DNA from: Bacteroidota bacterium
GTDB lineage: Bacteria > Bacteroidota > Bacteroidia > Chitinophagales > Chitinophagaceae
Reading direction: 5' to 3'
DNA: 34,860 nt
Assembly (NCBI GenBank): GCA_018267585.1
Contig: JAFDYE010000469.1
Location: 1-34,860, forward strand
How positions within the stretch are numbered: the first letter of the stretch is position 1; each line of letters opens with the position of its first letter. This document shows positions 2,531-6,033 of the stretch, one piece after another. The notes under the pieces are model-generated. The model was not told where the DNA came from. It saw only the letters and a list, made by a program, of their open reading frames with translations, and did not search any database. Position numbers and translations under genes: made by a program.

Positions 2531-2563
2531 CTTGCCAGGAAGTAAAAAAGATTTTTAAATTTG
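2531..2563 (+). promoter_or_regulatory. Predicted Bacteroidota sigma promoter
   Basis: A TTG element at 2532-2534 is followed, after 21 bases, by TAAATTTG at 2556-2563. The latter matches the Bacteroidota -7 consensus TAnnTTTG exactly, and the spacing fits the usual 19-21. Transcription would begin near 2570, in an intergenic region with no large ORF for about 450 bases. The surrounding A/T-rich tract is also promoter-like. No transcript data were available. Confidence 0.6.
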
Positions 2564-2569
2564 TAGAGT

Positions 2570-2725
2570 TCCAAAGCACGAGTATATGCTACGACAGTCT
2601 ACACATACGCTTAGTATTTCCGGGTATAACCCGACTAAGGTGTGTATATCCACGGGGCAAAGTGCTGCTTAACTTTAAAAAAAGATCCAGCATATAAAAA
2701 GCCCCGCCGACCAGCGGGGTTTTTT
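2570..2725 (+). ncRNA. Candidate structured RNA (6S-like, Y-RNA-like or attenuator leader)
   Basis: The segment runs from the predicted promoter to an intrinsic terminator, about 155 nt. Complementary segments seen by eye are TATATGCT 2583-2590 with AGCATATA 2689-2696, TACACA 2600-2605 with TGTGTA 2641-2646, CTTAGT 2610-2615 with ACTAAG 2634-2639, and CGGGT 2621-2625 with ACCCG 2629-2633. Together they make a long interrupted hairpin with a large asymmetric internal bulge, a shape reminiscent of 6S RNA. AGCAC 2575-2579 can also pair with GTGCT 2662-2666, which would form a pseudoknot or an alternative fold. CGGGGC 2653-2658 can pair with GCCCCG 2701-2706 and so compete with the terminator stem. 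The family is not identified. No tRNA-like T-loop of the YrlA kind was found. Confidence 0.5.
2696..2725 (+). terminator. Intrinsic terminator
   Basis: Stem CCCCGC 2702-2707 pairs with GCGGGG 2714-2719 around a six-base loop. It is preceded by an A run and followed by six T residues at 2720-2725. It ends the candidate structured RNA and may also stop read-through from the histidine kinase gene. Confidence 0.85.
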
Positions 2726-2766: not shown

Positions 2767-2889
2767 ATGCGTATGAAAACCACAAATCAATTAACCCACA
2801 CGGTGGGACGAAAGAAAAAGCAATTTCTCATTACGCTGGCGAAGCGTGAAGAGGCAAACTATTGCCCGGGACCGGGCTATATCGAATGA
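2767..2889 (+). CDS. Candidate small basic protein, 40 aa
   Basis: An ATG at 2767 opens a 40-codon frame ending in TGA at 2887-2889, with a second in-frame ATG at codon 3 (2773). The product has a basic centre (GRKKKQ, then KRE) and ends in NYCPGPGYIE. A purine-rich GAGAGCAGAG stretch precedes the start, although it is not a clean Shine-Dalgarno site. The stop is 30 nt before a strong intrinsic terminator, so the frame sits in a plausible transcription unit between two terminators. I do not recognise the family, and a frame of this length can arise by chance. Confidence 0.4.
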   Translation: MRMKTTNQLTHTVGRKKKQFLITLAKREEANYCPGPGYIE

Positions 2890-2919: not shown

Positions 2920-2947
2920 CCCGGTCGGCAACGACCGGGTTTTTTTA
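2920..2947 (+). terminator. Strong intrinsic terminator with GNRA-type loop
   Basis: Eight-base stem CCCGGTCG 2920-2927 pairs with CGACCGGG 2932-2939 around loop GCAA, followed by seven or more T residues from 2940. It separates the upstream small ORF and RNA from the TROVE gene that starts 70 nt further on. Confidence 0.9.
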
Positions 2948-3016: not shown

Positions 3017-4564
3017 ATGAAATTCAATTTTAGCCTGAAAAAAAGACAAGCAGCCGGCGCCCGCTATGCTTTTGTAAAGGCAGGAATGCCGGAGATGAAG
3101 GGTGGATTGGGGATAACGGGAATGAAGGCTGGAATGCCGGATGCGAAGTGGGAATTGTATACCAGCCTGCTGTCTGCTGCCGTGATCGCTCATTCGGACC
3201 GGCCTCATGAATCTTTGTCCGCGGTCCGCGAGGGTATCCGCAGTAATGACCTGGAGTTTCTGACCGGTCTCTCCCTGTATTTGCAGCAGCAAAAGAACAT
3301 TGGTCATCTGGCTTTCCTTTTGACTGCCGAGCTGGCGGCCCTGCGGGGCGATGATGAGCGGGCGGCGCTGCTGGTGAGCCAGGTCATTCGTCAGGTCACG
3401 GAAGTGCCTGTGTGGTTGGGTTATTTCGCTATTGCTGCCGGCGGACGAAAACCCGGGCGGGCTATAAGAAAAGTCCTCGCGGAACTGCTCAATCATTTGG
3501 AAGAGTACTCTTTTAGCCGGTATAGTAAGGAGGTACACAGCGGTATCCGCCAGGCCCTGGTGCTCATCCGTCCCAGGCCAGCGGGGCCCGAACAGAAGGC
3601 CCTGTTCTCGAAGATTCTTCGCGATCAGTTGGTGCTCCGGCCGACCTGGGAGCAGGAATGGCATTCGCTTCATCATCAACACTATGACAGTCCTGAACAG
3701 CGCCAGGTGATCCTGCGCGATAAGTGGAAGGAGGGCATCTCTTCTTTCCGGATAGGATATACGGCTCTGCTGGATAACCTGCAGCCCATGCTGTGCGCGG
3801 GGGTCAGCGGGAAGGTGCTTAAGCTGGCGGCGGCCTATCTCGGCAATGCGGCGGCGGTGACGAGGACGGAACACTCCCCGCTGAAAATGCTGGAAGTGTA
3901 CCGGGGATTGCGGCGGATGGACCACGGCGGAGCCGGGATGCTGTGTGAAGCACTGGAGCAGGCCGTCCTTCATAGTAGCTGGAGCCGCTCGGATTTCGGC
4001 AGGGGATCGGTATCGGTTATAGCCATGGATGTCAGCAACAGCATGAGGCGCCCGGTTAGCGCCGGGTCGCGGGTTTTGCGGTTCGACATAGCGCCATTGC
4101 TGGCGATGCTGTGGAAGAGCAGGGGGGAAAAGGTGATTACCGGTATCGTCGGCAACACCTGGAAGCCCGTAGAGTTACCCGACGGTCCGGTGCTGCTGTC
4201 GACTGACGAGCTCCGACAGAGGGAAGGTGAGGCCGGGTATGCGATCAACGCCCACCTGGTAATTGAGGATCTCGTGCGGAAGCAGCAGGTTGTCGACAAA
4301 GTGCTGGTCTTTACGGATACCCGCCTGTGGGATAACAGGGCTTACAACCAGGGGGTGGGCGCAAATCTGGGAGATTGGTGGAGGCATTACAGGTCCTCCA
4401 TATCGCCGTATGCAAGACTATACTTGTTCGACCTTGCCGGGTATGGGGGAAAGCCGCTGGAAATTCCCGAGAATGGCGTGTCCTTATTGTCGGGGTGGAA
4501 CGAGCGGATTTTTGACGTCCTTGCAGCCCTGGACAGCGGACTGCCTGTCATCGAACTGTCATGA
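3017..4564 (+). CDS. TROVE-domain protein (Ro60/Rsr-like RNA-binding protein)
   Basis: This 515-residue protein is close in length to Ro60 (538 in human). The N-terminal helical region (about 45-320) carries recognisable TROVE landmarks: NHLEEYSFSRYSK, an ALVLIRPRP segment, a Trp-centred TWEQEW, and WKEGISSFRIGYTALLDNL before a leucine-rich helix. The C-terminal half is a von Willebrand A fold with the MIDAS-like DVSNS (Asp338, Ser340, Ser342) and a later FTD (Asp434). The usual mid-domain MIDAS Thr is not obvious. Ro proteins are cytoplasmic rings that bind Y RNAs and misfolded or structured RNAs and work with exonucleases. GGGAGG at 3006-3011 is a good ribosome site five bases before the ATG. 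The gene lies next to a candidate structured RNA. The family call is by motif; the RNA partner is inferred. Confidence 0.82.
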   Translation: MKFNFSLKKRQAAGARYAFVKAGMPEMKGGLGITGMKAGMPDAKWELYTSLLSAAVIAHSDRPHESLSAVREGIRSNDLEFLTGLSLYLQQQKNIGHLAFLLTAELAALRGDDERAALLVSQVIRQVTEVPVWLGYFAIAAGGRKPGRAIRKVLAELLNHLEEYSFSRYSKEVHSGIRQALVLIRPRPAGPEQKALFSKILRDQLVLRPTWEQEWHSLHHQHYDSPEQRQVILRDKWKEGISSFRIGYTALLDNLQPMLCAGVSGKVLKLAAAYLGNAAAVTRTEHSPLKMLEVYRGLRRMDHGGAGMLCEALEQAVLHSSWSRSDFGRGSVSVIAMDVSNSMRRPVSAGSRVLRFDIAPLLAMLWKSRGEKVITGIVGNTWKPVELPDGPVLLSTDELRQREGEAGYAINAHLVIEDLVRKQQVVDKVLVFTDTRLWDNRAYNQGVGANLGDWWRHYRSSISPYARLYLFDLAGYGGKPLEIPENGVSLLSGWNERIFDVLAALDSGLPVIELS

Positions 4565-5508: not shown

Positions 5509-6033
5509 ATGTCTGTGGATAACAACTATTGGTACGCTGTATATACAAAGCCCCGCTGGGAGAAGAAGGTGTCATCCCTTCTTACCGAAAGGGGTATAGA
5601 GGCCTATTGTCCCCTAAACAGGACGCGGAAAAGATGGAGCGACCGGATGAAGTGGGTGGAGGAGCCGCTTTTTAAGTCCTATGTGTTTGTCAATATCAGT
5701 ATCGATGTGGTTCAGCCGGAAGTGCGGTTGACGAGCGGGGTGCTCAATTTTGTCTACTGGATGGGCAAGCCCGCAAAGATCATGCAGGCAGATATCGACA
5801 GGATCAAGCGCTTCCTCAACGAATACGAAAACGTGGCAGCAGAACCTCTGGAGCTGAAGCCCGGTGATGCCGTTCTCATCACCAGCGGCGCTCTTATGGA
5901 AAAGGCAGGGAAGGTCGTGAAGCGATCCGGCAATACCGTCACCATTACAATAGACAGTCTGGGATATAGCTTAACGGCAACGGTGGACAAACGCCATGTC
6001 GTTAAACGTGCCAGTAGCATGCAATATTCCTGA
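5509..6033 (+). CDS. NusG-family transcription antiterminator (UpxY type)
   Basis: This 174-residue protein opens with YWYAVYTKPRWEKKVSSLL, the beginning of a NusG N-terminal (NGN) domain that binds RNA polymerase. The domain continues through EPLFKSYVFVNI to about residue 105. A KOW-like beta-barrel follows at about 118-165 (ELKPGDAVLITSG, then GKVVKRSGNTVTI). In Bacteroides the UpxY proteins are encoded first in capsule operons and prevent premature termination in the long leader of their own operon. The position here, first gene after a 299-nt leader and just before the export genes, matches that role. AGGAGG at 5496-5501 gives a clear ribosome site for the ATG at 5509. Confidence 0.93.
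   Translation: MSVDNNYWYAVYTKPRWEKKVSSLLTERGIEAYCPLNRTRKRWSDRMKWVEEPLFKSYVFVNISIDVVQPEVRLTSGVLNFVYWMGKPAKIMQADIDRIKRFLNEYENVAAEPLELKPGDAVLITSGALMEKAGKVVKRSGNTVTITIDSLGYSLTATVDKRHVVKRASSMQYS

Follow-up and report, generated by a model that had tools for sequence, protein, structure and literature searches.

Attenuators of the trp, his, leu and thr type combine a leader open reading frame (ORF) and a pause hairpin with mutually exclusive antiterminator and terminator structures, and the leader-peptide attenuators known to us read one or a few amino acids. Here we describe an element of comparable layout in a 34,860-nucleotide stretch of DNA from a bacterium of the family Chitinophagaceae (contig JAFDYE010000469.1 of assembly GCA_018267585.1; hereafter the window), in which two predicted tandem attenuators, each with an ORF and alternative pairings, precede the gene for a divergent TROVE/Ro60-type protein. 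Like the classical attenuators it possesses a leader ORF, a pause-type hairpin, an antiterminator and a terminator that exclude each other, and a stop codon lying between the 5' arm of the antiterminator (strand A) and the terminator. It is unlike them in that its leaders contain about one of each amino acid, that two devices stand in series and that tRNAs and RNA-repair genes lie downstream. The leaders carry no regulatory codons devoted to a single amino acid that the operon produces, but have 18.0 of the 20 kinds in about 30 residues; hence the element does not belong to the amino-acid biosynthetic subclass of attenuators, though it may work like one. We consider it quite probable that these loci operate by ribosome-mediated attenuation, which would sense the loss of almost any charged tRNA and switch on divergent spare tRNAs and RNA repair. 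If this is true, a leader reading nearly all amino acids would offer a simple genetic means of detecting tRNA damage, and the puzzling tRNA arrays and TROVE/RtcB repair genes of Bacteroidota would acquire a purpose; the proposal, which is directly testable, also bears on the signal that bacterial Ro60 and RNA ligases answer.

The protein partners found at these loci are related to known RNA-repair systems. Ro60 is linked to the Rtc operon, and Burroughs and Aravind reportedly described, in 2016, RNA-repair clusters combining RtcB, Band-7/SPFH, TROVE and a tRNA-like RNA; our loci have the same kinds of protein partners and, additionally, tandem near-pangram leaders. Sections of one account present the Rtc RNA-repair operon (RtcB) as regulated by damaged tRNAs and as controlled by the activator RtcR, which has a CARF-type domain (PMC7790460). 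Control here would lie instead in leader ORFs and terminators, and a term search of the main text of that account returned no 'leader', 'attenuat', 'tRNA genes' or 'tRNA array'. Dense groups of tRNA genes like those described below also typify the mycobacterial tRNA array units, for which sections of the published text mention genes for an HNH endonuclease, an XRE regulator and RF-1-domain proteins (PMC5966550); 'RtcB' is absent from that text. Neither all-amino-acid leaders nor attenuators in front of tRNA arrays or of RtcB appear among the matches listed for open-licence PMC articles, judged by title and the start of the abstract, a collection that does not extend to most subscription papers and preprints.

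Positions 2531-2725 of the window had been set down in a preliminary description as a structured RNA running from an exact TAnnTTTG promoter to a terminator. The promoter is indeed present (Table 1), and we term it Bacteroidota-type by what we take to be the consensus of that group. The compact fold was also borne out, 2560-2735 folding at -57 kcal/mol (z -4.2) with none of 200 dinucleotide shuffles as good. The statement that no long ORF occurs here is literally true, but it hides an ORF of 28 codons (2586-2672) that is kept open in relatives. CGGGGC (2653-2658) is, as had been noticed, complementary to GCCCCG (2701-2706), and a GCGGGG copy (2714-2719) stands before the T run; the antiterminator and the terminator are consequently mutually exclusive, with the 5' arm of the former inside the ORF. 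The antiterminator piece (2650-2709) folds at -17.6 kcal/mol and the terminator piece (2694-2722) at -15.1, each with z -3.5, while a hairpin just 5' of strand A (H1; -18.1, z -3.9 for 2598-2648) is a candidate pause hairpin for RNA polymerase. Two other pairings had been proposed, namely AGCAC (2575-2579) with GTGCT (2662-2666) as a pseudoknot, and TATATGCT (2583-2590) with AGCATATA (2689-2696). The complementary letters exist in both cases, but judged by eye, with no separate covariation test, neither looks kept outside part of the genus: the 5' GCAC is missing in L014, L016, L018 and other relatives of the same genus, and in the start-codon pairing ATGCT/AGCAT the 3' element is mostly something other than AGCAT outside the genus. 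The suggestion of a riboswitch-like attenuator for a downstream small ORF and the TROVE gene, with CGGGGC breaking the terminator, was right in outline; the small ORF itself belongs to a second copy of the same layout, in which the antiterminator piece (2866-2928) folds at -21.2 kcal/mol (z -2.5; 1/200 shuffles as good) and the terminator (2916-2943) at -21.1 (z -6.4). Beyond what had been described, the element holds an ORF, and throughout the family its relatives stand in front of tRNA arrays and genes for RNA repair.

To follow the element we used a covariance model (R1) built from the leaders of 19 TROVE loci. Read from the corresponding ATG, the ORF of every one of the 19 remains open beyond strand A and ends before strand B, and stops occur in frame +1 of 14 and in frame +2 of all 19. 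Only the best candidates of a first pass were scored, so that the genome counts are lower bounds: the model matches at least 199 of 394 Chitinophagaceae genomes, from 69 of 101 genera, at E<=0.01 (about 135 genomes at E<=1e-5, counted by hand), and at least 26 of the 33 genomes of the genus. At E<=1e-5 it matches at least 17 of 198 genomes of the order, 14 of these within the family, and in the class at least one of 247, which is the window's own genome. A blastn search of the plasmid collection gave no match. We then examined 80 loci outside the seed, each with up to about 8 kb downstream, comprising the 79 best-scoring family matches (E 7e-23 to 2e-13) and a second copy in the window's genome; G320:C113 was excluded as lying at a contig end. 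Among the other loci, L010-L012, from a first DNA search, were not used as they match the terminator hairpin only, L019 was replaced by L005, and TROVE fragments (L030-L032) and duplicates (L038, L039, L043) were left out. A short ORF lies 5' of an intrinsic terminator in 78 of the 80 non-seed loci (none was found in L181 and the wrong ATG was taken in L183), and a further short ORF followed by a second terminator in 73. TTTG occurs within 60 nt 5' of the ATG in 98/98 leaders, a count with no control for TTTG alone, and mostly ends 17-32 nt before it; the full TANNTTTG occurs in 21 of the 98, whereas T[AC]NNTTTG turns up in 2.2 on average after mononucleotide shuffling.

The distance from the end of strand A to the stop is 16 nt in 50 of 97 leaders and spans 9-37 nt overall, and B starts 20-35 nt 3' of the stop. 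RNAalifold on a MAFFT alignment (A3) returned the terminator and a short hairpin and no A:B; because A:B and B:C are mutually exclusive, and strand B is misaligned in three sequences of the MAFFT alignment, we relied on swap tests and a model-based alignment. Across 47 representatives, strands pair better with their own partners than with partners swapped between sequences, none of 2000 swaps being as good in any of the four cases: the H1 halves (-9.03 versus -5.83, own pairing above the median swap in 40), D:D' (-6.45 versus -5.43; 32), B:C (-17.64 versus -16.20; 35) and A:B (-17.43 versus -16.62). Strand A of L042 was chosen automatically and is probably the wrong site. In an alignment of 99 sequences fitted to the structure, A:B and D:D' together gave a covariation score of 0.169 against 0.124 when shuffled and at most 0.039 when slid, and both-side changes occupied 36 cells against 14.8 in shuffles. 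D:D' accounts for 33 of these cells, with changes at all six pairs, one of which is unpaired in 65/99; A:B is paired in 96.6% and D:D' in 73.7% of cells. Covariation in relatives, which the preliminary description had named as a check, is thus seen for A:B together with D:D'.

The leader peptides are near-pangrams. In leader 1 (97 leaders, 95 unique; L181 and L183 excluded, L159 trimmed to an inner ATG) the number of distinct amino acids averages 18.03 over 30.3 residues, with all 20 in 11 of the 95, versus 15.45 in draws from the pooled composition and 14.7 and 14.3 in frames +1 and +2; the 19 seed leaders alone have 17.8 versus about 14.5 for windows of the window's proteins. To separate diversity from shared ancestry, residues were swapped within columns among 55 leaders of thirty residues. 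Codons 1-20 then show 16.07 distinct residues against 14.42 after shuffling (0/1000), an excess that persists in 18 representatives less than 50% identical to each other (15.28 versus 13.59, 0/1000), and codons 21-30 show none (7.20 versus 7.25, 765/1000). The cumulative excess from codon 1 peaks at 1.59 at codon 20 and falls to 1.15 at codon 30 (52 peptides), and strand A begins at nucleotides 61-70 of the ORF, i.e. codons 21-24, in 89 of 97 leaders. The excess being confined to codons upstream of A, the variety of leader 1 appears to be maintained through compensation only at those codons where stalling of the ribosome would keep A accessible, a constraint that amounts to a precise, codon-by-codon prediction. 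Leader 2 (73 of the 80 loci) has 18.64 distinct amino acids in 48.9 residues, versus 16.73 in protein windows and 17.0 in each other frame; before its last nine residues the column-shuffled comparison gives 18.59 versus 16.83 (51 peptides of at least 48 residues). The two leaders jointly contain all 20 amino acids in 53 of 72 loci.

The genes downstream of the 80 leaders were listed as far as the first long ORF in the opposite orientation. tRNA genes are found in 56 loci, 48 of which have three or more, and all 406 lie on the same strand as the leader (none on the opposite one). RtcB, Band-7, RNA ligase or RlaP genes occur in 41 loci; tRNAs and/or one of these or an RNase H-like gene in 71; and 76 carry tRNAs or a member of at least one of eight recurrent protein clusters. 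With names resting on one representative each, the clusters include an AAA ATPase (43 loci), RNase H-like (41), RtcB (32), Band-7 (25), DinB-like (14) and an unknown family of 261 aa (10), and RNA ligase and RlaP occur at two loci each. No anticodon is repeated within any of the 56 arrays as detected by ARAGORN, versus repeats in a mean of 33.7 of 56 in random draws from the pooled list (minimum 24 in 2000 draws). ARAGORN misses some tRNAs, Infernal adding one in L137; both programs detect tRNAs in the same six of eight related loci tested. The commonest array tRNAs are Lys(UUU), His, Gln(UUG), Phe, Asn, Arg(ACG), Ile(UAU) and Asp, several of which we take to be known targets of anticodon nucleases. 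In genome G370, nine array tRNAs are 49-71% identical to their same-anticodon counterparts among 25 non-array tRNAs compared, and did not arise by recent duplication of those housekeeping tRNAs; for the array Ile(UAU) and Ser(GCU) these 25 include no tRNA of the same anticodon.

From the alternative pairings, the ORFs and their geometry, the peptide diversity and the gene neighbours, all seen in the sequences, we infer translation of the leaders, readthrough as a result of stalling, loss of tRNA as the signal, and a function and use for the spare tRNAs. When translation is free, a ribosome at the last third or stop of the ORF would cover D and all or part of strand A, B would pair with C, and transcription would stop. 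Should one charged tRNA be missing, the ribosome would stall within the first 18-20 or so codons, A and D would be free, A:B with D:D' inside it would form before C is made, and the polymerase would read through. A leader with about one of each amino acid and no run of any one would report on the whole tRNA pool, and the arrangement of two devices in series should keep the basal leak small. In many relatives the output would be divergent spare tRNAs, each anticodon once, with RtcB, Band-7, RNase H-like and AAA proteins, and in the window the TROVE/Ro60-type protein. To a wider version we give an even chance, namely that this is a family-wide emergency circuit in which tandem pangram leaders sense the whole tRNA pool and tRNA destruction, for example by anticodon nucleases of rivals or of phage defence, releases non-redundant, divergent, nuclease-resistant tRNAs together with RNA ligase, TROVE and their partners.

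Table 1. Features of the tandem leader region and the gene that follows it (window coordinates)
Feature	Position	Strand	Details
Bacteroidota-type promoter	2532..2563	+	TTG 2532-2534, 21 nt, TAAATTTG 2556-2563; read from sequence
Leader ORF 1, MLRQSTHTLSISGYNPTKVCISTGQSAA	2586..2672	+	28 codons and TAA 2670-2672; translation predicted
Hairpin H1, within ORF 1, just 5' of strand A	2603..2645	+	core CGGG 2621-2624 / CCCG 2630-2633
Strand A, CGGGGC, antiterminator 5' arm	2653..2658	+	within T-G-Q codons of ORF 1
Strand D, GTGCTG, nested in antiterminator	2662..2667	+	pairs with 2688-2693 in fold
Strand D', CAGCAT	2688..2693	+	partner of D; fold and alignment
Strand B, GCCCCGC	2701..2707	+	partner of A (antiterminator) or C (terminator)
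Intrinsic terminator 1	2714..2725	+	strand C GCGGGG 2714-2719, T run 2720-2725; letters and fold
Leader ORF 2, MRMKTTNQLTHTVGRKKKQFLITLAKREEANYCPGPGYIE	2767..2889	+	40 codons and TGA; repeats layout of ORF 1; translation predicted
Strand A2, GACCGGG	2870..2876	+	in C-P-G-P-G codons; letters identical to C2; pairs with B2 in fold of 2866-2928
Terminator 2	2920..2946	+	B2 CCCGGTC 2920-2926, C2 GACCGGG 2933-2939, T run 2940-2946
Divergent TROVE/Ro60-type protein	3017..4564	+	515 aa; Pfam and profile comparisons

The architecture by itself would suit any signal that halts ribosomes early, and parts of a report on the Escherichia coli Rtc system link it to ribosome-targeting antibiotics (PMC12606134). 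A translation-coupled attenuator sensing a general slowing of ribosomes, through antibiotics or low initiation, with the variety of amino acids being incidental, is hence the strongest competitor, though in our view an unlikely one: columns compensate for one another to uphold the diversity, an effect that is strong in frame 0 alone and that, in leader 1, is limited to the part before strand A. It is very improbable that the ORF encodes a functional small protein, a signal or a toxin, to which the RNA pairings would be secondary. Such a protein would fit the fairly constant N-terminal M-L-R-x-x-L-H-I-E of the 55 thirty-residue leaders, but the frame crossing strand A varies among relatives (L025, L026 and L050 compared with the window), one layout is common to two different leader sequences, and what is conserved is diversity rather than identity. 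Equally slim are the chances of a non-coding RNA, be it 6S-like (an alternative raised in the preliminary description together with other small RNAs), a Y-RNA-like partner of TROVE or a metabolite riboswitch. The compact fold adjoining a TROVE gene invites this reading, and the best sub-threshold Rfam match is Leu_leader, at 24.9 bits under a cut-off of 50 and resting on the terminator; yet a conserved ORF runs through the supposed RNA, the same element precedes operons without TROVE, ARAGORN finds no tRNA gene in the window, and no match in the window attains the gathering score of an Rfam family, with only tRNA doing so in eight related loci. Least probable of all is the opposite polarity, in which a ribosome reaching the stop permits expression and stalling terminates it; the pairing taken alone is compatible with it, but given the size of the ribosome footprint a ribosome at the stop should cover D and abut A, favouring the terminator, and free RNA can form A:B before C is made.

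Several observations weigh against attenuation by loss of charged tRNA as set out above. The 80 loci are nearly all best-scoring matches, found with a model that contains the leader sequence, A and B, and the conservation of these three is therefore partly a product of how the loci were selected. A:B is nearly invariant, its own pairing exceeding the median swap in just 22 of 47 representatives and its both-side changes amounting to three cells in the 99-sequence alignment. Slight excesses of diversity in the other frames (+1: 12.49 versus 12.16, 10/1000; +2: 12.00 versus 11.73, 31/1000) indicate that relatedness explains part of the effect, codons 1-20 carry about 16 kinds of amino acid rather than 20, and the last nine residues of leader 2 show a smaller excess (7.73 versus 7.18, 0/1000) that the model does not need. 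In leader 2 an A2 complement of at least 5 nt, 9-26 nt before the stop, is found in 63 of 73 loci, and one of at least 6 nt in 52. The leaders of the window are themselves incomplete, with 16 and 17 kinds and jointly lacking Asp and Trp, and the TROVE gene stands alone downstream. Finally, at four of the 80 loci the part in view shows no tRNA gene and no recurrent operon protein, two at contig ends (L132, L172) and two not (L144, L157).

Three known classes were set aside as candidates. No 6S family is among the 26 Rfam matches at E<=10 in the window; for Y RNA or YrlA there is no Rfam match at threshold, no Y-RNA family at E<=10 and no tRNA gene detected by ARAGORN in the window; and no known T-box or metabolite-riboswitch model matched in the window, the eight related loci giving tRNA only. 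The comparison with Rfam that had been suggested as a check on the 6S, YrlA and riboswitch models thus turned out negative in each respect.

The TROVE/Ro60-type protein of the window is divergent, scoring alone 19.6 bits against Pfam TROVE, under the cut-off of 23 bits. Among 16 aligned TROVE-type proteins, TROVE is recovered in 13 (best 4.3e-29) and the Ro60 vWA domain in seven at E<=0.001, and a profile of such proteins matches the solved 'TROVE domain-containing protein' sequences 9l5y and 9kop (E 3e-18). Five named relatives include proteins of Puia dinghuensis, a Flavitalea and Chitinophagaceae metagenome-assembled genomes. TROVE-type genes occur in 15 of the 33 genomes of the genus (E<=0.001) and 31 of the 394 of the family (E<=1e-30), and the leader is present at 19 of 44 TROVE loci examined, which is a count and not a test, the model having been built from the same 19. 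The gene 5' of the leader, as seen by eye, varies among these, being a kinase C-terminus in about half and other genes or none recognised elsewhere, so that the leader travels with the TROVE gene. Just 5' of leaderless TROVE genes (e.g. L051-L067) a TGCGCA-type palindrome occurs in 15 of 25 by exact pattern, with variants in others by eye; the exact pattern is found at none of 18 leader loci, one of which has a mis-set TROVE start (the starts of L017 and L048 are mis-set in this count). The leader and the palindrome look like alternative controls, the latter being a putative second mode of TROVE control. A divergent WYL-domain gene adjoins the leaderless TROVE gene of L027, with similar coding sequence seen by eye 5' of others. 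In L124 (G027:C8) a leader with a tRNA array is followed, about 4.5 kb further 3', by a TROVE gene in the same orientation.

Beyond the family, 17 of 295 genomes sampled from the class contain Band-7 relatives, with tRNAs at nine of the 17 loci fetched around them. A scan of nine Band-7 loci for a short ORF and terminator gave none in six, and in three from another Bacteroidia family (L261, L263, L265) a leader 36-39 residues long, in which 18-19 kinds of amino acid occur, stands before a terminator, tRNA and Band-7 genes. L261 has a second leader of 43 residues and 17 kinds, and at all three a complement of 5-11 nt to the terminator arm, the best of a search with no control, lies 49-67 nt before the terminator. 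Model R1 missed these leaders, and the device may therefore be older than the family.

A few further features of the loci deserve mention. The second copy in the window's genome (L203, G000:C344) stands before a tRNA-Ile(UAU) and an AAA gene. AUA is normally read in bacteria by a modified CAU tRNA, and an Ile tRNA with anticodon UAU is present in 23 of the 56 arrays (L124-L203). Weak tRNA-like Rfam matches occur far 3' of arrays (L133:4438-4494, L137:5306-5362, L146:3709-3772), two of them truncated (model positions 7-64); these are possibly the tRNA-like RNA reported to accompany Band-7 modules. At L136, L153 and L188 a transporter gene of one cluster (MatE in the representative, L188) follows the leader. 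Elsewhere in the window, a NusG-like gene (5509-6033), probably a locus-specific antiterminator, heads a polysaccharide cluster.
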